The notes under the pieces are model-generated. The model saw only the letters and a list, made by a program, of their open reading frames with translations. It was not told the origin of the DNA and made no database searches. A program made the position numbers and the translations under genes. Source: Polyangia bacterium (GTDB taxonomy: Bacteria > Myxococcota_A > Polyangia > Fen-1088). Taken from it: a DNA stretch of 64,000 nucleotides. Where the stretch lies: assembly GCA_036268875.1 (NCBI GenBank), contig DATATI010000020.1, forward strand, positions 124,001-188,000. Direction: 5' to 3'. Of this stretch, positions 26,548 to 44,296 are shown piece after piece (within the stretch, counting starts at the first letter, position 1; each line of letters opens with the position of its first letter).

Positions 26548-28128
26548 TCAGCGGCGCGGCCAGCGGAGAAAAACCCGCGCCCGCGTGTGACGCGGGTTCA
26601 TTTCGCCGACCGGCGGGCTGTCATCTTCGACGATGCTGGCTTCGAAACTGACGATGCGATCCTCGGCCCGTCCGGTGCGTTGCGGATAGGCCAGGATCCA
26701 GTCCTGGAAGGCCCCCCAGTACTGCGACGAGAACGGAATGCGCGCCGAGTAGTTGAAGAAAAATGAATCGTTGTCCAGGCGGGCGGGGATGGCGGCGGTG
26801 CCGGGGTGGCCATACCGGCCGGCCACTTCACTGTACGGATCGACGTGGCGGCCGTCGGCGGTGACCGCTTCGACCACCACGCTCTCGTCGACCACGGGCG
26901 CGTCGGGCGCGAACATGGTCCAGGCCTGGATGAGGCGTGGGTACGCCACCAGCATCCTGACGAAGGTCGGCTGCCAGAAGCGCACGCGCGCCGACAACAG
27001 CGGGTTGCCGATGAAAAGCTCGGTCATCAGCACCACCAGCATCAGACCGGCGGCGCCCTCGCGGGCGGCCGTGCGCAGACGACGAAGAAAATCGACCGCC
27101 GGTACATTGGACGGCCGCGGCAGCGATGGCTGCGGTGCCGAGCCGCACAGTCCGGCGACCACCGCGGCGATCCGCTGCGCGCCTGCCGACAACCGCCGCC
27201 CGAGCACCAAAAGCCGTGGCCGCGCCGCCAGCGCCTGCCAGTCCGCCGCGGTCAATAGAAACGGCGCGTACGCCATCATCACCAGCGAGAACACGCCGAC
27301 GTTGATGAACAGCTGCAACCCAAGGTGCAGCGACACCATGAACACGATGGCGAGGCGCCGGGTGACGGACTGGCGCAGCGGACTCAAGATCAAAAACGGC
27401 AGCGCCGTCTCCATCGCCAGGCTGCTGTAGGTCAGCACCCGCGACAACCCCAGCGTCATGTGCGGCCGCATCCACACGCCGAACGCCGTCACCATCCGAT
27501 CCTGGTGCAGCACCACGTGAACCGCGGTGCCCTGCCGCCAGGTCGCCCCGCCTTTGTGAAGGGCGTTGAACAGGTACGACACCGCCAGTTGCACCAGCAG
27601 CGCCAGCACCGCCACCGACAACACCGGCGTCTCGTCCGCGGGCGCGTCGGGCGCAGCGCGCGCGGCCCGCAGCGCATCGACGGAGAACCGCCGCCCGAGA
27701 GGCAGGAACATCGTCCACAGCGCCAGCTCGCTGAGCATCCAGTCGCCACCGTTCTCCACCAGCGTGACCCGCCCGTGCAGGCTCCACACCGCGATCGCCG
27801 ACAGGAACTGGAAAAGACGCGTGCGCCAGCCGACCAGCAAGGCCGCGTACACGATGCCGCACAGGATGAACCCCAGCGCGGCTTCGTCCTCCCACGAGGC
27901 CAGAAAAAACAGGGAGAACATCCACTGCGTGGGCGGCCGCCACAGAAGAACGTGATTGGTCAGCAGGCCGTGGTTGGAATACCAAAGCGTCAGGTCCGGG
28001 ATCCGGCGCAGCAGATCGACCAGCAGCACCAGCGCCAGCGCGATCCGCCCCGCGGCCAGGCTGCGCGGATCGGCGGTCAGGTAACGGCGGGCCAAGGCCT
28101 GGCCGAACGCCGCAGCGCTCACGGTCAT
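26548..28128 (-). CDS. HTTM-domain membrane protein
   Basis: A 526-residue polytopic membrane protein of the HTTM family (membrane domain related to vitamin K-dependent gamma-carboxylase). Family features include DPRSLAAGRIALALVLLVDL, LWYSNHGLLTNHVLLWRPP and FLPLGRRFSVDALRA. About eight hydrophobic helices are followed by a soluble C-terminal domain (about 410-526) beginning VVEAVTADGRHVDPYSEV. It overlaps its upstream neighbour by ATGA (28125-28128) and is clearly its paralogue, sharing both the membrane part and the C-terminal domain but lacking the inserted thiol-redox domain. Biochemical function is unknown. Confidence 0.88.
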   Translation of the reverse strand: MTVSAAAFGQALARRYLTADPRSLAAGRIALALVLLVDLLRRIPDLTLWYSNHGLLTNHVLLWRPPTQWMFSLFFLASWEDEAALGFILCGIVYAALLVGWRTRLFQFLSAIAVWSLHGRVTLVENGGDWMLSELALWTMFLPLGRRFSVDALRAARAAPDAPADETPVLSVAVLALLVQLAVSYLFNALHKGGATWRQGTAVHVVLHQDRMVTAFGVWMRPHMTLGLSRVLTYSSLAMETALPFLILSPLRQSVTRRLAIVFMVSLHLGLQLFINVGVFSLVMMAYAPFLLTAADWQALAARPRLLVLGRRLSAGAQRIAAVVAGLCGSAPQPSLPRPSNVPAVDFLRRLRTAAREGAAGLMLVVLMTELFIGNPLLSARVRFWQPTFVRMLVAYPRLIQAWTMFAPDAPVVDESVVVEAVTADGRHVDPYSEVAGRYGHPGTAAIPARLDNDSFFFNYSARIPFSSQYWGAFQDWILAYPQRTGRAEDRIVSFEASIVEDDSPPVGEMNPRHTRARVFLRWPRR

Positions 28129-30110
28129 GGCGGCGGCGCTCCGTGGTGAAGAAAAATACGCCGGCGAACATTGCCGGCCACGGTCTCGCCGGGGGGTGGA
28201 CTGTCGTCATCGATCACCCAGGCGTCGAACGAGGCGATTCGATCGCCGGCGCGTCCGGTGCGCTCTGGGTGGCGCAGCACCCATTCGACAAACGCCTGGT
28301 GATAGACGACGTGATCCGGAATGCGACGCGCGTATTCGGCGAACAGCGCGCTTTCATCCAGGCGCGCCGGGATAGTGGTCAGCGGCAGCGACGGTTCATC
28401 GATGCGGCTGCCGGCGGCGTTGAACGGATCGACGTGGCGCCCGTCGCTGGTCAGGGCATCGACGAACACCATCCGGTCACCGGTCGGCGGCTCCGACGCC
28501 CACGCCGTCCAGCGCTGGGACAGGCCGCCGTACCCGATCAGCGTCGCCACCAGCGGCGGGCGCAGGTCGCGCAGCGCCGCGGGCACGGCAGGGTTTTCGG
28601 CCAGCGCATCGACGGCCAGGGCCAACAACGTCAGCGCCGCCAGCAGCTCGCGCATCTGCGCTGGCCGCGCGCGCAGCCAGCGCCAGCAGCGACAAAGAAA
28701 GAAAGCGCCGCCGCCCGACGACGCCTCCGCTGTTCCGTCAACCGCCGCCGTCGCCACGGAGGACGGCGGCCGGGCCGGCACCCCGCACGCCGCCAGTCCC
28801 AGCCAGGTGGAAAGGCGCGTCCGGTTGATCGCCACCCGATCGTAGACCCAGACCGCCACGGTGCGGACCAGCGGCAGCCGCAGGAACAGCGCCAGCGGCC
28901 AAAAGCCGGGCAAGGTGCGAAAGATCTCGGCGAAGGCATCTGCCCGCAGCCAGCGCCGGCCCGTCACGGGATCCACCACCAGCACCGTCTTTTCCAGCAG
29001 TCCCGGCTCGACCGACAGTCCAGCCGGAAACGCCGCCAGGTCGTCGTTCGACAGGAAACGCAGCCGCCCCAGCGTGTCCAGGCGTCGCAAGAGGCGCACC
29101 GAAAAAAAACAGATCCCACAATCACCGTCGAAGATGACGAGACGCGTGCGCTGGCGCCGGCGCGCCCAGGCAGCGGCTTGCTCCCAATCTTGCGCCGACA
29201 AAAAGAACGGCAGAAACGCCAGCACCGCGACCGCCCAGTTGCCTTGGTTTAACAGCGCGGCGATCGTCGCCACCCAGGTCACCGTTAGCGCGATGCCCAG
29301 CCGGCGCGCCCAGACGCGTCCCACTGGCAGCAGCAGCAACACGGCAATCAACAGCGGCGCCAGCCACACGAAACGACTGAGCGCCGACAACAGCGACGGC
29401 GACAGCGCCGCGCGCGCCCACGCACCGACGGCGGTGACCACCCGCGCTTGGTGAAGCAGCCAGTGCAGGGCCGACCCGTCACGCCAGGCTGGCCCCGACC
29501 GGTTGGCGAACCAGAAGATCAACATGGCCGCGAACTGCAGCAGAAGGCCCGCCACAGCCAGAGACTGCACGGGCGCGGTGTCCGCCGCCGGCGCGCGCGC
29601 CGGATCCAGATCCGCTGCCGAGTGATGGGCGCGCCCGCGCAGGCCGGCCACCACCGCGTCGACGGAGAATCGCCGCGACAGCGGCAAGAACAACGTCCAC
29701 AAGCACAGCGCGCCCAGCGCCACGCTGCCCTCGCCCTCGATCCAGATGATCCGGTTGTGCAGGCTGACCGTGGCCAGCAGGCTCAAGACCTGGAAAAGCC
29801 GGGTGCGAAATCCGACCGCCAGGGTGACGAAACAAAATCCGCAGACGAAAAAAAGCAGCGCCGCCTCGTGCGGCAGCGACGCCATGAAGAAGATCGAAAA
29901 CAGCCGGGGAACAATCGGCTGCCAGAGCACGGTGTGATTCGGCAGCAGCCCCTCGTTGGAATAGAAAAGGGTCAGCTGCGGCCCGCGCGACCACAAATCC
30001 ACCAGCAACGCCAAGCCCAGCGCGATGCGACCCAAACCCAAGCTGCGCGGATCGATGCAAAGCCAGCCGCGCCATCCGGGACGATCGGCGGTCGGGGGGC
30101 GCGGCGGCAT
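28125..30110 (-). CDS. HTTM membrane protein with embedded DCC (DUF393) thiol-redox domain
   Basis: A 661-residue fusion. Residues 1-320 are an HTTM membrane domain (DPRSLGLGRIALGLALLVDL, LFYSNEGLLPNHTVLW, FLPLSRRFSVDAVVA). A DCC-family thioredoxin-like domain follows at about 322-440, opening with FDGDCGICFFSVRLLRRLD; Cys331 and Cys334 form the CxxC. Then come further hydrophobic segments and the same soluble C-terminal domain found in the downstream paralogue (ALTSDGRHVDPFNAAG). Gamma-carboxylase-like enzymes depend on quinone/thiol redox partners, so a redox domain on the same chain is suggestive, but no substrate or carboxylase activity can be inferred safely. Confidence 0.88.
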   Translation of the reverse strand: MPPRPPTADRPGWRGWLCIDPRSLGLGRIALGLALLVDLWSRGPQLTLFYSNEGLLPNHTVLWQPIVPRLFSIFFMASLPHEAALLFFVCGFCFVTLAVGFRTRLFQVLSLLATVSLHNRIIWIEGEGSVALGALCLWTLFLPLSRRFSVDAVVAGLRGRAHHSAADLDPARAPAADTAPVQSLAVAGLLLQFAAMLIFWFANRSGPAWRDGSALHWLLHQARVVTAVGAWARAALSPSLLSALSRFVWLAPLLIAVLLLLPVGRVWARRLGIALTVTWVATIAALLNQGNWAVAVLAFLPFFLSAQDWEQAAAWARRRQRTRLVIFDGDCGICFFSVRLLRRLDTLGRLRFLSNDDLAAFPAGLSVEPGLLEKTVLVVDPVTGRRWLRADAFAEIFRTLPGFWPLALFLRLPLVRTVAVWVYDRVAINRTRLSTWLGLAACGVPARPPSSVATAAVDGTAEASSGGGAFFLCRCWRWLRARPAQMRELLAALTLLALAVDALAENPAVPAALRDLRPPLVATLIGYGGLSQRWTAWASEPPTGDRMVFVDALTSDGRHVDPFNAAGSRIDEPSLPLTTIPARLDESALFAEYARRIPDHVVYHQAFVEWVLRHPERTGRAGDRIASFDAWVIDDDSPPPGETVAGNVRRRIFLHHGAPPP

Positions 30111-31559: not shown

Positions 31560-33701
31560 ATGTCGTTTGACCATCGAATAATGGGCGACCCCGTTGCCGA
31601 CAATCCGATGCCCGAGCTGCCGCCGTCGACCGAATCACCAATGTCGTCGCCGCCGGCAGAGGAACCGGCTGCGACCGCAACGACGCCAGCCCCAAAGGCC
31701 CCGGCCCACGACGGCGTTCCGGCGCTGACCGGCCTGACCCGCAGCCTGGGACTCCTCGGCCTCGAGGGTTGGTCGGTCGGCTTGTTGGCCTGGGGGGCGC
31801 GCGCCGCCTGGCGCCTGTCGGCTTACGCGGTGGCCAACGAGATCACCGCCAAGGGGCGCATCGTGCTGCTGGCCGATATGTTCGGCACCGCGTTCGCCGT
31901 CTGCTTGCTGGCCGTGGTTTACATGCTGGTGCGGCGGCGGCGCGCCGATGTCCTCGACGTCGTCGACGGCGTGGCGCGACGGCTGGCGCCGCTGGTCGTG
32001 GTCGGGCTGCTGCCGTTCCTGCTGAACTGGTCGATCTGGAGCGGGCGCGAGCTGTCGTTTCTGGTGCTGGCCGCGGTCTTTACCTTGGGCGTGCGGCCGC
32101 TTTTGACCATGTCGCTGTCGGCGCCGCCGTTGCTGGGCCAGTCGCTGACGTTGATCGGCCTCGGCGTCGCGCTGCATGCGTTTCGCCACCGGCACGCCCG
32201 TTTCTTTGCCCGGCTGCCGCTTTTCATCGTCCTCGGCGGCGCGGTGTATTACGCGGCGTTTTTCGCCTATCACACCATCGTTCATCACCGGAACATCCTC
32301 AGCACCAGCCTGGATCTGGGCCTGGAAGACAACCTGGTGTGGAACGCGCTGCACGGCGGACCGCTGTTCAAGTCGTCGCCGTACAGCGGGCCCACCGGTT
32401 CGCACGGCGGCAACCACGTCACGTTCTTCGCTTACGTGATCGCGCTGTTTTATTTTTTCGCCCAGCGCGCCGAGACCCTGCTGGTGCTGCAGGCAGTGGT
32501 GCTGGGTGCGGCGGCGATTCCGCTGTTTCTCTTCGCCCGCCGACACATCGGCCCGTGGAAGGCGTGCGTGGTGGCGCTTTGCTACCTGCTTTATCCGCCG
32601 CTGCACGGGTCGAACCTGTACGACTTTCACTATCTGCCGCTCGGCACGTTTTTCCTGTGGCTGACGCTGTACGCGCTCGAGTCGCGGCGCACCGTCTTGA
32701 GCGTGTTCGCCGTGATCTTGACGTTGTCGGTGCGCGAGGATGTGGCCGCCGGCCTGGGTATCATCGGCGGCCTGCTGCTGCTGACCGGCGAGCGCCCCAA
32801 GGCCGGCATCATCGTGGCGATCGTCGGCGTCGGCTACGCCGGGCTCTTGAAGCTGGTGATCATGCCGCACGTGGCGGGTGCGTGGTCGTTCCTGTCGATG
32901 TACCAGGGCCTGGTCCCGAGCGGCGAAAACAGTTATGGCGCGATGTTGAAGACCGTGGTGGGCAACCCGGCCTTCACCGTGAACAGCTTGGTCGAACGCG
33001 ACAAGCTGCTTTACCTGCTGCAGATCTTGGTGCCGCTGGCGTTCATTCCACTTTCGCGGCCACTGACCATCCTGTGCTGCGTGCCGGGCTTCATCTTCAC
33101 GCTGCTGTCGACCGGCTATGCGCCGCTGTACCAGATTTCGTTTCAGTACACCGCGCACTGGACCACCTATCTGTTCATCGCCGTGGTGCTGGCCGTCGAG
33201 GGGATCGATCGACGCGCGCCCAACGACCAGCGCGCAGTCGATCCGCAGGCATCGGTGCGGCAGCGGGCCGCGATGGTCACGCTGGCGCTGGCGTCGCTGG
33301 TGGCGTCGCACCAGTACGGAGCGCTGATACAACAGAACACCGTCCGCGGCGGCTTCGGCGTCTATCAATTCGGCACCAGCGCCGCCGATCGCGCCCGCCG
33401 CGAAGCACTCTACGCGCTGATAGCCCGGCTCCCGCCGCGCGCCAAGGTCGCCGGCACCGAGACCGTGGTCCCGCAGATCTCGCACCGCCCCGACGCGTAC
33501 ACCGCCCGCATCGGCATCTTCGACGCCGATTACTTGCTGTTCATGATGCCAGCCGGTGGCGAAGAGGGACGCAACATCGCCGCCGGCCTCGCCAGCAGCG
33601 GCTACGGCGTCGTCGAAGTGAAAGAGCCGTTCGCGCTGGCCAAGAAGGGCTATTCCACCGCGGCCAACGCCAGCGTGCTGACGCGGGTACGCGGCTACTG
33701 A
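31560..33701 (+). CDS. DUF2079 polytopic membrane protein
   Basis: A 713-residue membrane protein with an N-terminal Pro/Ala/Thr-rich cytosolic stretch (residues 1-55) and about a dozen hydrophobic helices. The DUF2079 signature region is visible as NILSTSLDLGLEDNLVWNAL followed by a His/Gly-rich loop (SGPTGSHGGNHVTFF) and YPPLHGSNLYDFHYLPLGTFF. The family resembles GT-C glycosyltransferases or lipid-linked sugar transferases in topology, so a role in envelope glycan assembly is plausible. A GT2 gene converges on it, but its functional link is uncertain. The exact start is unclear; ATGs at 31560, 31581 and 31608 are all possible. Confidence 0.85.
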   Translation: MSFDHRIMGDPVADNPMPELPPSTESPMSSPPAEEPAATATTPAPKAPAHDGVPALTGLTRSLGLLGLEGWSVGLLAWGARAAWRLSAYAVANEITAKGRIVLLADMFGTAFAVCLLAVVYMLVRRRRADVLDVVDGVARRLAPLVVVGLLPFLLNWSIWSGRELSFLVLAAVFTLGVRPLLTMSLSAPPLLGQSLTLIGLGVALHAFRHRHARFFARLPLFIVLGGAVYYAAFFAYHTIVHHRNILSTSLDLGLEDNLVWNALHGGPLFKSSPYSGPTGSHGGNHVTFFAYVIALFYFFAQRAETLLVLQAVVLGAAAIPLFLFARRHIGPWKACVVALCYLLYPPLHGSNLYDFHYLPLGTFFLWLTLYALESRRTVLSVFAVILTLSVREDVAAGLGIIGGLLLLTGERPKAGIIVAIVGVGYAGLLKLVIMPHVAGAWSFLSMYQGLVPSGENSYGAMLKTVVGNPAFTVNSLVERDKLLYLLQILVPLAFIPLSRPLTILCCVPGFIFTLLSTGYAPLYQISFQYTAHWTTYLFIAVVLAVEGIDRRAPNDQRAVDPQASVRQRAAMVTLALASLVASHQYGALIQQNTVRGGFGVYQFGTSAADRARREALYALIARLPPRAKVAGTETVVPQISHRPDAYTARIGIFDADYLLFMMPAGGEEGRNIAAGLASSGYGVVEVKEPFALAKKGYSTAANASVLTRVRGY

Positions 33702-33740: not shown

Positions 33741-34736
33741 CTAACTGCGGCTGTCAGCGGGCGGACGCTCGGAAGGCGAAGCAGGCGGCAGGTTGATCTC
33801 CTTCGCCACCACGTACAGCGGCCGACGCTTCACCTCTTCGTAGATGCGGCCGACGTATTCGCCCAGCACGCCGGTCATCAGCAACTGCGCCGAGGCCGCG
33901 AACGCCACCAACATCATGATGGTCGTCCAGCCGGCCACCGCTTCGTTCGTGAACAGCTTCACGTAGACCGCCCAGGCCGCCACCGCGATGGCCACCAGCC
34001 CCGACAACACGCCCAGCCAGGTGGCGAAACGTAGCGGCACGATCGAGAACGACGTGATGCCGTCGATGGCGAAACGCACCATCTTGCGCAGCGGATACTT
34101 GGTCTCGCCGGCAAACCGCGCCGGCCGGCTGTACACCACCGCCGTCTGCCGGAAGCCGAGCCAGGCCACCAACCCGCGCACGAACCGGTGCTGTTCGCGC
34201 AAGGCGCGCAGGGTCAGCACCACCGGCCGGCTCATCAACCGAAAGTCGCCCACGTCGACGGGGATGGAGACCCCCAGCATCCGGTTCAGCACGCGGTAGT
34301 AGATCGCGGCGCTGGTGCGTTTGAACAAGGTCTCGCCGGCCCGTTTTTCGCGCATGGCGTACACGACGTCATAGCCGCCGCGAAATTTCTCCAGCATCTG
34401 GGCGACGATCTCGGGCGGGTCCTGCAGATCGGCGTCCATCACCACCACCGCGTCGCCGTCGGCGCGGTCGATGCCGGCGGTGATGGCCAGCTGATGGCCA
34501 AAATTGCGGGAAAACGCCACGATCTTGAAGCGGCGGTCGCGGGTGGCCATCGCCTCCAGCAGCTCGCGCGAACGATCCTTCGAACCGTCGTCGATGAAGA
34601 TGACCTCCCAGGCGTCGCCCACGCCCTGCAGCCCGGCGAAGAACGCGATCAAACGGCGCTCGAGCTCGGGGATGACCTCTTCTTCGTTGAACACCGGAAG
34701 AACGAGGGACAGCTTCGGGCGACTGGTCATTGCCAT
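33741..34736 (-). CDS. family 2 glycosyltransferase, dolichyl-phosphate mannose synthase / GtrB type
   Basis: A 331-residue protein with ATG at 34736 (or 34730). It has a GT-A catalytic domain (KLSLVLPVFNEEEVIPELER, VIFIDDGSKDRSRELL, VVMDADLQDPPE for the DXD site) and two C-terminal transmembrane helices near SFSIVPLRFATWLGVLSGLV and WTTIMMLVAFAASAQLLMTG. Such enzymes transfer a sugar from a nucleotide donor to a polyprenyl phosphate on the cytoplasmic face; a GT-C enzyme then uses the lipid-linked sugar. The neighbouring DUF2079 protein and the polytopic protein at 39.3 kb are candidate GT-C partners, inferred only from topology. Confidence 0.92.
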   Translation of the reverse strand: MAMTSRPKLSLVLPVFNEEEVIPELERRLIAFFAGLQGVGDAWEVIFIDDGSKDRSRELLEAMATRDRRFKIVAFSRNFGHQLAITAGIDRADGDAVVVMDADLQDPPEIVAQMLEKFRGGYDVVYAMREKRAGETLFKRTSAAIYYRVLNRMLGVSIPVDVGDFRLMSRPVVLTLRALREQHRFVRGLVAWLGFRQTAVVYSRPARFAGETKYPLRKMVRFAIDGITSFSIVPLRFATWLGVLSGLVAIAVAAWAVYVKLFTNEAVAGWTTIMMLVAFAASAQLLMTGVLGEYVGRIYEEVKRRPLYVVAKEINLPPASPSERPPADSRS

Positions 34737-34830
34737 GGCCACACCTGAGGTCGGGCCAGGATGCCCCAAGACCGCGCGCCCTGCCATGGTCTTCCGTCGC
34801 CGCGCCCGACAGCCAGCACGACGGCCGCCA

Positions 34831-39334: not shown

Positions 39335-41749
39335 CTACGCCGCTGCCTGGGCGGGCGCCGGCTCTTCGCCGTCGATGCTGGTCTGGGCGCCGCGCCCGCG
39401 CCAGGTGTCCCAGCAAAGGCCGCCCAGGATCGCCGCAAAGCCGACCAGCAGGATCACGCTTTGCCAGGTGTAGACCACGTCCGACCAGCCGGTGAACAAG
39501 GTCGGGTACTGCATCACCGTCATCGCCAGCAGCACCGCCGAGACATAGGTGAACAGCCAGTCGCGGCTGGCCAGCTGCTGGTCCACCGTCTGCTGGTCGC
39601 GCGTGCCCAGGAGCGGCAGCAGAAAGACGTAGTGGCAGTAATAGTTCGCCGGGTAGAAAAAGATCGGGATCAAGATCAGGCCCGCCAGCGCGGCCTGATC
39701 CAGCCGCCGCCGGCGGCAGGCGGCGAACGCCAGCCCCGTGTACAGCAGCACGCCGAGATAAAAGATCGGCTTGCGCGCCTCGAACCGCTCCAGCTGCTCG
39801 CGCTGCCAGGTGGCCCACGATTCAACCACGCTGTTGTCGATCACGCGCTGCCCGACGCGATCGCCGTCGTAGGCCAGCACGTTGCGCAGGCCGACGTGGT
39901 TGGTGTTGGGCTGCTCGGCGTGGATGCGGATCTTCTCGAACCAGGCGCCCCAAGATCCTGAAAGACCGAACAGCGCCGACGACAGTGCCACCAGCACCGC
40001 CAGCGTTCCCAGGCCACCGGCGATCGCCCGCAGCGTCGGTCGCAGCCCTTCGCGCAGCGCGGACAGCGACGGAAATTTCTTTCCGGCCCGCACGGTTTCG
40101 ATCAGCCACCAGATCCCCGGCGCGCACATCATGAACGCCGCCAGCGCGGGGAAAGCGCGGATCAAACCAGCGTACGCCACCAGGCCGCCGCCCAGCGCGT
40201 ACCGCCGCCGCTTGAAGGCACACGCGGCCAGGCCCATGCCGCACATCCAGTCGAGACGCAAGGTCGATCCCATCAGGTTGGTGCCAAAGCGCGAATAGTC
40301 CGTCGCTCCGAACATGATCATCACAAGCAACACCGCCCGTAGCCCGAAGGTGCGCCCGATGACGATGAAGGTGATGATCAGCAGCAACGGATCAATCAGC
40401 GCTGACAACGTCATGGTGGTCTCGCTGGCCGGCGCGTGCCGGAACAGCGCGTACGCCTGCATGATCCAGACCGGCGTGGCGTTGCCGCCGTGGTCTTGCA
40501 GGCTGCCGAGGTAATCGTTGGCGCCCATCACGTCCTGGAAATAGCGCATGTCTTTTTTGAACTCTTCCCAGCGCTCGGGGGAAAAGCGAGAGCGCACGCC
40601 CTGGATCTCCGGGACGATCTCCGAGACGGTGCGCATGTGATTGTCGCGCAGATCGCGCAGCCGCACGTGGGCGATGCGCTCGGGCGTGACGCTGTTGTTG
40701 TCCAGGTACGCCGCCACGCTGGCCAGGTACAGGCCGTCGAAGCGCAGCTCGCGGAAATACTTGGCCACCGGGAAGTACACCCGCATGTCCCACGGGTGCA
40801 CCAGCGTCCGTCGGTGCTTCGAGTTGTCGCGGAACTGCGGCGGACCCAGGTGGTAAAAACACATCACCGAGATCAGCGACAGCACCGATAAGATCGCGGT
40901 GATCCAGCGCCGGTCGACGGCGGACGCCCCGCGCCCGAACGCCTCGCGCAAAAGCGCCACCAGCGCGATGGCCGCCACCACCGTGCGCAGGACGAACTGC
41001 TCGGGCTCGTCGACCGGCCACACGTCGGCCAGCGAGAACGCCGCCGACAAACCGAGACCGATCGGAACGACGATCAGCAGGCGCACCAGATCGCGCGACT
41101 GGCGGTTGTGAATCAGCAGGAAGATCACCATCGCCAGCCCGAACAGCCACAGTCGAAACTGCGCGGTCTCTTGCAACGACGTCCCGTTCGCCTCGCTGAA
41201 GGTCGGCGGCCACTCCGTCGGGCAGTCTCGATACACCGCCAGTTCGCCGACGCTATACGCGCCGTCGCCGCCGTCGGCGGTGACGCGTACGTAACGGCCC
41301 TGGCCGGTCAGATCCTTACCATAGCGAAAACGCATCCCGGCGCCCGGCACCGGCCCGCCGGTCCAAAGCGGCATGAACGCCTGGCCGTCCTCCGACACCG
41401 AAAATCGGTAGTGGTCGTTGTTGTCGCCTTCGACCAGCGCGCAATGAATGGGCGTCGACTGTCCCAGATCGTAAATGACCCGGCCGCCGGGCGGGATCAC
41501 CGACGTCAGCTCGGTCCGCCAGAAGTTTCCCGCCAGCGGAGCCACCCCGTCGGTCAGGCGTTCGGTGTGCGTGACACCCACCGCGGACGACGGCAATTTT
41601 CCGCGCAGCAACCCTTGGCCCGGCCCCGGCGGAATGGCCGACCCGCCGCCCGACCCGGTGCACGATCCCGTCGCCGCGCCCAGGGCGATCGCCGCCGCGG
41701 CCAAAAACCAGGAAGAAAAACCAGCTCTTCGCGCCAGACGCTGCGCCAT
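39335..41749 (-). CDS. discoidin-like domain fused to a polytopic membrane protein
   Basis: An 804-residue protein with ATG 41749 preferred (MAQRLARRAGFSSWFLAAAA). A signal-like helix is followed by a weak lipobox-like Cys (GAATGSC) and a Gly/Pro linker. A discoidin/F5/8C-like beta-sandwich covers about 45-185 (NFWRTELTSVIPPGGRVIYD, GRYVRVTADGGDGAYSVGEL). About twelve transmembrane helices follow, with large loops rich in charged and aromatic residues (HPWDMRVYFPVAKYFRELRF). The membrane part looks like a GT-C/DUF2029-type glycosyltransferase fold, but I cannot see an assured catalytic DXD or DE site. The architecture suggests glycan binding outside the cell combined with membrane sugar transfer; this is inference. 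Confidence 0.75.
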   Translation of the reverse strand: MAQRLARRAGFSSWFLAAAAIALGAATGSCTGSGGGSAIPPGPGQGLLRGKLPSSAVGVTHTERLTDGVAPLAGNFWRTELTSVIPPGGRVIYDLGQSTPIHCALVEGDNNDHYRFSVSEDGQAFMPLWTGGPVPGAGMRFRYGKDLTGQGRYVRVTADGGDGAYSVGELAVYRDCPTEWPPTFSEANGTSLQETAQFRLWLFGLAMVIFLLIHNRQSRDLVRLLIVVPIGLGLSAAFSLADVWPVDEPEQFVLRTVVAAIALVALLREAFGRGASAVDRRWITAILSVLSLISVMCFYHLGPPQFRDNSKHRRTLVHPWDMRVYFPVAKYFRELRFDGLYLASVAAYLDNNSVTPERIAHVRLRDLRDNHMRTVSEIVPEIQGVRSRFSPERWEEFKKDMRYFQDVMGANDYLGSLQDHGGNATPVWIMQAYALFRHAPASETTMTLSALIDPLLLIITFIVIGRTFGLRAVLLVMIMFGATDYSRFGTNLMGSTLRLDWMCGMGLAACAFKRRRYALGGGLVAYAGLIRAFPALAAFMMCAPGIWWLIETVRAGKKFPSLSALREGLRPTLRAIAGGLGTLAVLVALSSALFGLSGSWGAWFEKIRIHAEQPNTNHVGLRNVLAYDGDRVGQRVIDNSVVESWATWQREQLERFEARKPIFYLGVLLYTGLAFAACRRRRLDQAALAGLILIPIFFYPANYYCHYVFLLPLLGTRDQQTVDQQLASRDWLFTYVSAVLLAMTVMQYPTLFTGWSDVVYTWQSVILLVGFAAILGGLCWDTWRGRGAQTSIDGEEPAPAQAAA

Positions 41750-41887
41750 GGGCCGCACTGTCGCATCGATGCCGAGGGCGATGCAATTCGGCCGACCACG
41801 ATGCCGCCGGCTTCCGCGCAAGCGACCGAGAACAAAGCCTTTGTCTCAAGTCCGCCCGCGTGACCGCCGACGATGGTTGCAATCACC

Positions 41888-44296
41888 ATGCGCGTCCTTC
41901 GCTCGCTCGCCTCATCGATCTTCCTAGTGGTCGCTGCCGCCACCGCGGTCGGCTGCGGCATCTCCAAGCCCGCCGTCGACGGGACCGGTGGAACCGGCGG
42001 CGACGGCAGCGGCGTGGCCTCGCGCCTGCCGCCTGCCCAGCGCGGCGAGCACCTGGCGGTGTCGATCATCGGCCCTTCGCCCGACGACGACATCACCACC
42101 ACCTCGTCGGCCATCACGCTCGACGGGTTGGCCTTCGGCGCACCCAGCGAGGTGCACTGGCAAGGCCCGGCCGGCAATGGCACCGCCGACGGCACGCAGA
42201 ACTGGGCCGCCACGGACATCCCACTCGTCGCTGGCGAAAACTTCATCACCATCGACGCCGTCGCCTCCAACGGTTCGCACGCCAGCAAGAGCGTCGTGGT
42301 CCGCCGCAACACCTTCCTCGGTTTTCTCGGGCACCCGCAGCTGACCCCGTCGTTCGCCTTCGTCGGCGACGACACCGAGGTGATCGTCAGCGTCGGCATC
42401 GACACCAGCATGGCCGGCCTCAATTCGGCCAGCTTGAAGCTGGCCCAGGTTGATCCCTCGGGCGGCATCGCCGGAATGATCTCCAGCATGGCGGACGACG
42501 GCGACTTCGGGAACAGCGGCGACGAGATCCCCGGCGACGGCGTCTACTCGGCGCGCTTCCGCATCACCAAATCCACCGAGAGCGCGCTGACCCTGGCGGT
42601 CACCGCCACCGACAGCACCGGCGCCGCCAGCGAGGTGGCGGCGATGGGTTCGGTGCCCTTCGTCTCGCACGCCACGGACGATCAGCTGACCGGCGCCGCC
42701 GCCACCGTCTCCAACATGGAAGAAAGCTTTCAGGCCGCCAAGACCACCGGCGATCTGACCATGGCCTATGGCGCGGCCACCGCTGCCGCCGCGGCTGATC
42801 CGAACGTGTCGAACAGCGGCGTGTCGGCGGGTGGCAGCGGCACCTGGGCCGTCTCTACCGCCGGGATCATCGCCGGCATGCTGGACAGCGGCAACAACGA
42901 CGAACGCGGCAGCGTCGAGATCGGCAACCACGCCAGCTTCTGCGGGGCCGCCAACGACGCTGACTTCTCGCCCACCGACGAGAGCGCCGACGCTGGCACC
43001 ACCCTGGGCGGCCGCAGCTGCCCGGCCTACGACGTCAGCGACGTGTTCCGCGACGAGGACGTCACCATCGATCGTCTGCGCACGCTGACCCGCCACGGCC
43101 TGGTCTTCCTGACCATGCACGGCACGTCGTACGATGATCTGCCCAACACGCCGGCGGCGCAGCAGCTGCCCGCGCACGAATTCCTGCTGACCAGCGAGGA
43201 GGTCACGCCCGCCTCGCTGCGCAAGTACGAGCTCGAGCTCAAGACCGGGCAGATGGCCGTCGGCCCGACGGTGGCAGGCGCGCAACGCTTCTTCATCACC
43301 CCCAAGTTCATCGACAACCTCCCCGGTCGCTTTCAAAACAGCCTGATCTACGTGGGGGCCTGCCGCAGCTTCTGGAACGGTGAGTTCGCGGCCGCTTTCC
43401 TGCGCAAGGGCGCCGCCGCCTTCTTCGGCTACTCGGACATGGTGAAGAGCGCCTTCGCCTACCAGACCGGCATGGCGTTCTTGCAATGCTTGCTCAACGA
43501 CCACAACGACGACGGCTCCGGTAAAAGCAGCGCCGACTGTTTCACCGCCGGCCTCCACGACGACGGTTCGGGCGACGAAAAGCGTGGCGCCCAGTGGCCG
43601 TCGACCGCCGCCTACGGCATCAAGCTGCCCAAGCCGGTCGCCGTCACCCACTTGCCGGCGTACTTCAAGATGATGGCCCGCCAGGACGTCACCATCGCGT
43701 CGGTGTCCGGGCTGCGCAACGGCGGCTTCGAGGAGATCGATCGCAGCAACGCCGCCAGCCCGCAGTCGGTGGCCTGGCAAAGCCAGGGCGACGCCCGGGT
43801 GATGTTCAACCTGGGCGGTTACCTGCCGACCGAGAGCACCAAGATGGGCCTCATCTCGACCGGCCTTGGCTTCACGCAGACGAACGGCGAGCTGTACCAG
43901 ACCTTCTGCGTCCCGGCCGGCGTCACCCAGCTCAGCTATGACTGGAACTTCATCTCGGCCGAGTTCTTGTCCTACTGCAACGATCCGCGCTACCAGGACA
44001 ACCTGGCCGTCACCATCGAAGAGACCGGTCCCGGCGGCGCGACGACGGTCCTGCAGGCGCTGAAGATCGATGACCTCTGCGCCAGCGTCGGCGATTCAAA
44101 GTTCAAGGTCCCCGACTACGGCTACGTCGACAACGACGGCAAGACCTACGCCACCGACTGGCAGCACTTCGGCCCGTTCGACATGACGCCGTGGGCGGGT
44201 TCGCCGAAGAACATCACCTTGCGCTTTGCCGTCAACGACCGCGGCGACAGCATTTACGACACCGTGGTTTTGATCGACGGCATCACGCTGCAGTAG
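41888..44296 (+). CDS. surface lipoprotein with predicted caspase-fold (clan CD) peptidase domain
   Basis: An 802-residue protein with ATG 41888 preferred (ATG 41873 also possible). Lipobox AVGC is followed by Gly/Thr linker sequence and Ig-like/calcium-binding-like segments (DDGDFGNSGDEIPGDGVYSA). Residues about 310-560 show a clan CD dyad pattern as in gingipain/CHAT proteins: HGLVFLTMHGTSYDD with His411, then NSLIYVGACRSFWNGEFAAA with Cys492 and the following AFLRKGAAAFFGYSDMV. A C-terminal beta-sandwich (about 612-802, ending DSIYDTVVLIDGITLQ) resembles choice-of-anchor-type domains. It probably acts on the cell surface. The peptidase assignment rests on motif spacing, not on known homologues. 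It overlaps the convergent hemD end by 14 bp. Confidence 0.75.
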   Translation: MRVLRSLASSIFLVVAAATAVGCGISKPAVDGTGGTGGDGSGVASRLPPAQRGEHLAVSIIGPSPDDDITTTSSAITLDGLAFGAPSEVHWQGPAGNGTADGTQNWAATDIPLVAGENFITIDAVASNGSHASKSVVVRRNTFLGFLGHPQLTPSFAFVGDDTEVIVSVGIDTSMAGLNSASLKLAQVDPSGGIAGMISSMADDGDFGNSGDEIPGDGVYSARFRITKSTESALTLAVTATDSTGAASEVAAMGSVPFVSHATDDQLTGAAATVSNMEESFQAAKTTGDLTMAYGAATAAAAADPNVSNSGVSAGGSGTWAVSTAGIIAGMLDSGNNDERGSVEIGNHASFCGAANDADFSPTDESADAGTTLGGRSCPAYDVSDVFRDEDVTIDRLRTLTRHGLVFLTMHGTSYDDLPNTPAAQQLPAHEFLLTSEEVTPASLRKYELELKTGQMAVGPTVAGAQRFFITPKFIDNLPGRFQNSLIYVGACRSFWNGEFAAAFLRKGAAAFFGYSDMVKSAFAYQTGMAFLQCLLNDHNDDGSGKSSADCFTAGLHDDGSGDEKRGAQWPSTAAYGIKLPKPVAVTHLPAYFKMMARQDVTIASVSGLRNGGFEEIDRSNAASPQSVAWQSQGDARVMFNLGGYLPTESTKMGLISTGLGFTQTNGELYQTFCVPAGVTQLSYDWNFISAEFLSYCNDPRYQDNLAVTIEETGPGGATTVLQALKIDDLCASVGDSKFKVPDYGYVDNDGKTYATDWQHFGPFDMTPWAGSPKNITLRFAVNDRGDSIYDTVVLIDGITLQ

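Follow-up and report, generated by a model that had tools for sequence, protein, structure and literature searches.

The product of one gene in the window, i.e., the whole stretch of 64,000 nucleotides that was analysed, is on balance best read as an extracytoplasmic glycosyltransferase of the GT-C type, distantly related to GT87/PimE and belonging to a family that seems to be undescribed, in which a head with the discoidin/CBM32 fold would hold the enzyme near its acceptor; we lean towards this reading with modest confidence. Outside the membrane, GT-C enzymes complete the glycans of the cell surface, and the way in which each locates its proper acceptor is poorly understood. GT-C enzymes with binding modules are already known; a family headed by an N-terminal discoidin-like domain seems undescribed, and one that comprises both headed and headless members, with a head common to an unrelated membrane enzyme, lets the purpose of the head be asked directly.

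For this protein, hereafter P0001, we infer a mechanism in which the C-terminal module would transfer a sugar to a periplasmic acceptor, the donor being a polyprenyl-phosphate sugar that a GtrB-like synthase encoded nearby may supply and that may then be flipped outward. In this scheme, the favoured base is D321, where the first outer loop starts, with Y325 as its putative partner and R531 as a candidate ligand of the donor phosphate. The head, cut free from the signal peptide and anchored by the first of three extra helices, would bind a periplasmic or surface ligand and so keep the enzyme near the acceptor. The positions of all these elements are given in Table 1.

Table 1. Positions in the window of P0001, its parts and two neighbouring genes.
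Feature	Position	Strand	Basis
CDS P0001, discoidin-headed GT-C-like membrane protein, 804 aa	39335..41749	-	Open reading frame, relatives
Signal peptide region, residues 1-30	41660..41749	-	Hydropathy peak 9-27; loose A-x-A-type pattern
Discoidin/CBM32-fold head, residues ~44-175	41225..41620	-	Model, fold search, family profile
Three extra membrane helices ahead of the GT-C-like module, residues 192-271	40937..41176	-	Hydropathy, model, starts of structural matches
GT-C-like module, residues ~277-785	39395..40921	-	Profile comparison, structural matches
HPWDMRVY, residues 318-325, first outer loop: favoured catalytic D321 with partner Y325	40775..40798	-	Conservation; PimE D58/Y62 spacing; profile alignment does not confirm
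D400, rival candidate acid	40550..40552	-	Conservation, profile alignment
IRAFP, residues 530-534: R531 aligned with the invariant lysine of GT87 (PimE K195)	40148..40162	-	Alignments, conservation
NYYCHY, residues 702-707, close to where PimE has its W-T-H-H segment	39629..39646	-	Alignment
GtrB/ArnC-like polyprenyl-phosphate sugar synthase, possible donor maker	33744..34787	-	phmmer; also near relative in L033
DUF2079 membrane protein	31560..33701	+	Pfam; also near relatives in L033, L035

Reading frame, distribution and topology

The reading frame, in a 6.15-Mb assembly of 95 contigs, runs uninterrupted from an ATG at 41749 to a stop at 39335. Relatives at E<=0.001 are found in all 18 genomes of its family, its own counted in and part of these matches being a more distant paralogue or fragments, and in 24 of the 59 genomes of the relatives set. 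The family is spread through its phylum, namely Myxococcota by its named relatives: the family profile matched at E<=1e-10 in 136 of 377 genomes sampled across the phylum, and the five named loci with relatives, all MAGs, are assigned to Myxococcales (three), Deltaproteobacteria (one) and Proteobacteria (one). Many of the profile matches listed across the phylum cover the membrane part alone, some of which do carry the head as a separate match (L117, L119, L120); the head is absent in some family members, e.g., L023, L025 and L026 (546-550 aa). A paralogue 29% identical to P0001 lies in its own genome, on contig C41. In two loci (L036:2173-4544 and L035:7863-10549), the frame of the relative is broken in the deposited contig into two overlapping parts, which may reflect sequencing error or decay. 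In one scan of viral contigs, 20 stretches fitted a pattern and none was confirmed.

The family is unnamed in Pfam and NCBIfam as scanned: no model of either collection exceeded its cut-off in P0001, a search of PDB sequences with P0001 alone as query returned nothing at E<=1, and the literature search listed no paper on the family. A match to the Pfam model Holin_SPP1 (E 0.0061) reached 17.1 bits against a cut-off of 27 and was taken as chance.

At the N-terminus, the signal-like helix of the original prediction was recovered as the first of 13 hydropathy peaks of 1.2 or more (residues 9-27), and a loose A-x-A-type pattern lies ahead of the head in 49 of the 54 head-bearing rows. The weak lipobox claimed along with it did not hold, P0001 lacking any match to [LVI][ASTVIG][GAS]C, a pattern seen in only 4 of those 54 rows. 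The other 12 peaks make at least 12 membrane helices after the head. With helix limits set by hand from hydropathy and the structure model, an outside head places loops 214-220 (2 K/R) and 271-282 (3 K/R) inside and loop 240-251 (no K/R, 4 D/E) outside; this alternation of charges after the head agrees with the positive-inside rule, in line with the outside location proposed for it. By the same charges, and given the head outside, the first long loop (302-445, i.e., 144 residues, holding HPWDMRVY) lies outside as well. In the second half of the protein, the same count leaves RRRR (679-682) outside, contrary to the positive-inside rule. An extra helix near 543-556 would mend this placement, so that the true number of helices may be 13 or more; the model contains a helix at 543-554. 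Because most structural matches start at about residue 277 (model residues 82-93, corresponding to P0001 residues ~271-282; AftA matches earlier, at 49), the core of the GT-C fold appears to start at the fourth helix, and the D321-bearing loop would then come after the first helix of that core.

GT-C likeness and candidate active site

Compared with 22 GT87 homologues by hhalign, with the bridging member L053 excluded, the profile of 23 family members gave 95.4 (score 76), and 96.6 when L053 was included in the GT87 set; the membrane part alone gave 95.8, and 0.9 once reversed. In the positive control, PMT_2 against GT87, a known GT-C pair, the value was 94.5. The family itself gave 16.7-22.5 against PMT_2 and 1.6-2.0 against MFS, the unrelated or reversed controls covering 0.1-48 overall; because the reversed family reached 48.0 (score 43.7) against PMT_2, values under about 50 are uninformative and the 75.6 (score 49.0) obtained with a GT87 set of 10 rows is modest. 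The best local match to the GT87 profile spans 78-79 columns, at P0001 residues ~505-610, around R531. By direct search with the Pfam model of GT87 (PF09594), P0001 had no match at E<=10 and one of the 23 members matched at E 0.0068, while L053, a remote member carrying the head, scored 29.4 bits in one scan and 21.8 in another (cut-off 25).

On the structural side, both models are weak in the membrane part, and GT-C entries missing from the fold lists are not counted against the GT-C reading. The best Foldseek match of the membrane-part model has an E of 0.49. Nine of its ten best VIA rows correspond to GPI mannosyltransferase I, PimE (two), PIG-U chains (three), Pmt1, Pmt4 and AglB (Z 8.5-11.8), the remaining one being a chain of GPI transamidase not named in the row, and the first unrelated row, a designed toroid at Z 8.2, comes just under the tenth GT-C-like row. 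The original prediction of a GT-C-like membrane part, to be given up for a fold without such resemblance, thus has in its favour a profile kinship with GT87 and, though from a low-confidence model (pLDDT 53.5), nine of the top ten rows of the structural comparison; it is unproven.

Two other readings of these comparisons were weighed. It is improbable that the membrane part is a polytopic protein of some other kind, unrelated to GT-C, whose profile and fold scores are noise common to membrane proteins: the low pLDDT, a Foldseek E near 1, the reversed PMT_2 control at 48 and unrelated VIA rows at Z 8.2 would agree with this, but GT-C rows take nine of the top ten VIA places and perhaps the tenth too, and the larger GT87 comparison lies above every unrelated or reversed control. 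It is also improbable that the protein has the GT-C fold but no transferase activity, being a subunit or receptor as PIG-U is in GPI transamidase. Four of the six best structural rows are chains of GPI transamidase (three of PIG-U and the further one), one of the 23 members has a weak PIG-U match (E 0.011) and one clade of paralogues is devoid of D321; against these stand the acid at 321 and Y325, kept in all 52 other rows, and the invariance of K330, Y331, E334, R393 and W394. PIG-M (GPI mannosyltransferase I) and PIG-U (GPI transamidase), among the best structural matches of P0001 (Z 11.8 for 9wno_A and 10.0 for 8imx_U), differ from it in being eukaryotic and having other partners, and no discoidin head is known on either.

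For the favoured reading, i.e., a transferase remotely akin to GT87/PimE (PF09594; PDB 9DM5, 9DM7), the likeness of the membrane module lies in the profile comparison, in the match of the weak model to 9dm5 (Z 10.4, rmsd 4.9 over 216 residues), in a D-x3-Y in the first outer loop and in a basic residue at the place of PimE K195. The differences are a score below the Pfam cut-off, an arginine for the lysine, the three additional N-terminal helices and the N-terminal head. Because both the cut-off and the lysine were examined, and P0001 was found to score under the one and to lack the other, it is not filed under GT87.

In PimE (PMC12041525), the base is D58, located at the tip of juxtamembrane helix 1 (JM1) and held by Y62, the variants D58A, D58N and Y62A being inactive and K195 being located at the phosphate. 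In P0001, D321 and Y325 have the same spacing as D58 and Y62, and in the model D321 stands directly after the first core helix, just before a short helix at 322-329. Conservation was read from 71 open reading frames which, less seven duplicate loci, make 64 rows, five of them lacking residue 321 and leaving 59. In all 52 rows outside a variant clade of seven, these rows being mutually related and not independent, residue 321 is D (47) or E (5) and Y325 is kept; the variant rows have A at 321. Five further residues (K330, Y331, E334, R393, W394) do not vary in the 59 rows. Residue 400 is an acid in 59/59 rows (D in 57, E in 2), the seven variant rows included. The motif and its placement thus favour D321 as the candidate base, with D400 as its rival.

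We consider it rather unlikely that D400, or E396, both within the insertion of the first outer loop, acts as the base, D321 and Y325 having another role and the variant clade then being active. Such an assignment would suit the unbroken conservation of D400 and the hhalign alignment, which, where it reaches that far, places the GT87 aspartate at E396, four residues from D400. It would also suit the distance to T425-P426, aligned with the PP of GT87, which is 26 residues from D400 and 105 from D321, the equivalent in L046 being 43; with D321 as base, P0001 would have about 60 residues more up to the T-P/PP site than L046, including R393-W394...D400. Against it, first-loop segments alone gave only 0.3-1.4 with GT87 and so have no signal of their own in that part of the alignment; D400 is inside a predicted long helix (391-408), whereas D321 sits just before a helix, comparably to D58 at the tip of JM1 in PimE; and the PimE spacing belongs to D321-x3-Y325. 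Profiles excised so as to keep either the first loop or the inserted part scored alike (95.3 and 95.7) and did not separate D321 from D400. Of the acidic site originally suggested for the first long outer loop, a conserved D/E321-Y325 was found, but D321 as the catalytic acid is unproven, the GT87 aspartate being aligned elsewhere.

Farther along the chain, R531 is aligned with the GT87 lysine in six of six alignments, and T425 with the first P of the PP in five, the sixth not covering the site. This lysine is invariant in 10 GT87 homologues and corresponds to PimE K195, as counted from D160, Y161 and Q163. A lysine is absent from its place in the family of P0001, where a conservative change to arginine is seen: position 531 is R in 49 of the 52 ordinary rows (two gaps, one Q) and in all seven variant rows.

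The discoidin/CBM32-fold head and its other carriers

In the full-length AlphaFold model, built from eight sequences (mean pLDDT 57.3) and weak outside the head, residues ~44-175 form a beta sandwich with pLDDT means over 10 residues of 71-92, except 61 at residues 41-50 and 52 at 71-80. Among solved structures compared by Foldseek and VIA-align, its best relative is IFT25 (Z 15.1, rmsd 2.0 over 121 residues), followed by CBM32/discoidin domains, the CBM32 modules at Z 12-14; among the 50 matches listed, discoidin beta sandwiches cover 116-134 residues at Z 15.1-11.8. The beta-sandwich binding domain of the original prediction is thereby borne out as a discoidin/CBM32 fold. By profile, the family matched CBM32 4a42 at E 3e-4, and the fold shared with F5/8 type C/discoidin/CBM32 domains (F5_F8_type_C, PF00754) is reflected in weak matches in 14 of 23 members; none of the 23 reached the Pfam cut-off of 28.2 bits (best L015, 26.2 bits, E 9.6e-6), and P0001 itself had no F5_F8_type_C match. 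Carbohydrate binding by the head is a putative function.

Judged by analogy, P0001 most likely works like EmbA/B/C, AftD and the GT136 enzyme ORF12, all of which combine, as P0001 would, a membrane enzyme of the GT-C type with a beta-sandwich module in the periplasm. These are described as GT-C enzymes with periplasmic binding modules, which in EmbC, AftD and ORF12 bind the polysaccharide acceptor; the Ig-like module of ORF12 (residues 503-652) binds the acceptor O-polysaccharide yet is dispensable in assays (PMC11127046). The module of EmbC is C-terminal. In P0001, by contrast, the module is an N-terminal discoidin/CBM32 head followed by extra helices. The domain order, claimed to be unusual, is so as regards the N-terminal position of the head, but binding modules on GT-C enzymes as such are already known from the same systems (PMC11127046).

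The head is found beyond the GT-C-like proteins. Its profile has matches in 18/18 genomes of the family of P0001, and seven of the heads, examined in L150-L156, belong to reading frames 974-1569 aa long in which 12-14 segments are hydrophobic; all four of these proteins that were scanned have a spermidine-synthase domain over its cut-off (PF01564, best E 1.5e-20), with a weak MFS match in two. A head relative in L151 matched PF24607, the Pfam model of the AftD CBM, weakly and below cut-off (E 0.0032). In the tree, the heads of the seven spermidine-synthase-type proteins make up a single clade (96/87); the heads of L002 and L106 join it (99/93), and under midpoint rooting it is nested inside the heads of L002-type GT-C members. 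The simplest reading of this tree would be one transfer of the head from the GT-C to the other membrane protein, its direction depending on the root.

Since the same head is fused to an MFS/spermidine-synthase-type membrane protein, the view of the head as an acceptor lectin is weakened; its presence on both kinds of protein argues for a general addressing function no less than for recognition of the acceptor, and it is unproven that the glycan on which the membrane part acts is what the head recognises. It is quite possible, if less probable than the leading interpretation, that the head is a general periplasmic docking module which brings membrane enzymes of several kinds to a common partner or site, transferase activity still being ascribed to the GT-C part. 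Besides the single clade of heads on the seven other proteins, the nearest structural match would fit such a role, IFT25 being a protein-binding discoidin fold; most other close structural matches listed for the head are, however, carbohydrate-binding modules, and GT-C enzymes whose binding modules touch the acceptor are on record.

Variant paralogues and gene neighbourhood

In seven rows (L009, L010, L011, L027, L029, L030, L031), A321, D325 and D423 replace the D, Y and N otherwise kept, and Y703 is replaced by I, T or N. These rows form one clade with a support of 100, all within genus g6, in a tree of 58 rows from which six fragment rows were omitted. Variant and ordinary forms occur together in five genomes (G005, G010, G014, G016, G017), the ordinary copy of G010 being L006, on the same contig as L034. 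Pairwise dN/dS is 0.07-0.26 within the clade against 0.08-0.36 among seven chosen ordinary relatives, L031 being omitted from the head comparisons. The variant thus has a single origin and, because of the low ratios within its clade, is regarded as maintained under purifying selection. Near it, ExbB-like genes are present in all five loci fetched and ExbD and TonB-like genes in four, i.e., at L131:6291-8656, where alone they were identified by Pfam, and at similar places in L123, L133 and L134, while L132 has the ExbB-like gene only; this proximity may be mere synteny of one genus.

With its replaced pair, the variant clade provides a natural experiment on the acid required by the active site; three accounts fit it, namely a base that was relocated, a pseudoenzyme, or D400 serving as base throughout. 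A broader, speculative idea, to which we assign a rather low probability, is that the family-specific discoidin head serves as the phylum's transferable address tag for outer-face membrane enzymes (GT-C and MFS/spermidine-synthase), and that the variant clade has shifted its catalytic acid by one turn of the loop helix (D321A, Y325D, N423D), giving a GT-C enzyme with its base in a new place or else a conserved pseudoenzyme of the GT-C type that works beside the ordinary paralogue.

As regards the gene neighbourhood of P0001, phmmer matched the GtrB-like synthase to the structure 5ekp of sll0501 (E 1.6e-86), which we take to be GtrB, and to ArnC entries at E 8e-50 or weaker; the NCBIfam models PgfS and ArnC match below their cut-offs, and the next best relative in the same genome is 32% identical. 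The DUF2079 protein, one of two in its genome, presumably belongs to Pfam's GT-C clan; a literature search for DUF2079 together with glycosyltransferase found no paper. Operon comparison at E<=1e-10 covered 33 loci (L033-L036, L121-L149), several on contigs that end within a few kb and two (L141, L149) being stretches of P0001's own genome without its gene. Among them, the DUF2079 gene recurs in L033 and L035 and that of the synthase in L033 only (63% identical over the stretch that the locus covers), while L129, the fourth member of the small clade of P0001, has neither on its 6.3-kb contig. Parts of the two-component pair were found in L133, L137, L138 and L149 and the TPP enzyme in L147, and BolA, Grx, HemD and the gene at 41873 were matched in 0/33 loci. 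No glycan gene cluster was seen around P0001. The linkage to GtrB and DUF2079 genes, limited to the protein's own small clade, fits a lipid-linked donor pathway.

Two other stretches of the window are recorded as separate observations. At 26548-30110 (-), a protein with an HTTM domain adjoins one with a DCC1-like thiol-disulfide oxidoreductase domain. The gene at 41873-44296 (+) encodes a divergent protein of 807 aa with a weak Glucodextran_B-like domain below cut-off, the second half of which (HGTSYDD ... GACRSFW) resembles by eye a clan-CD peptidase of the gingipain/caspase type.
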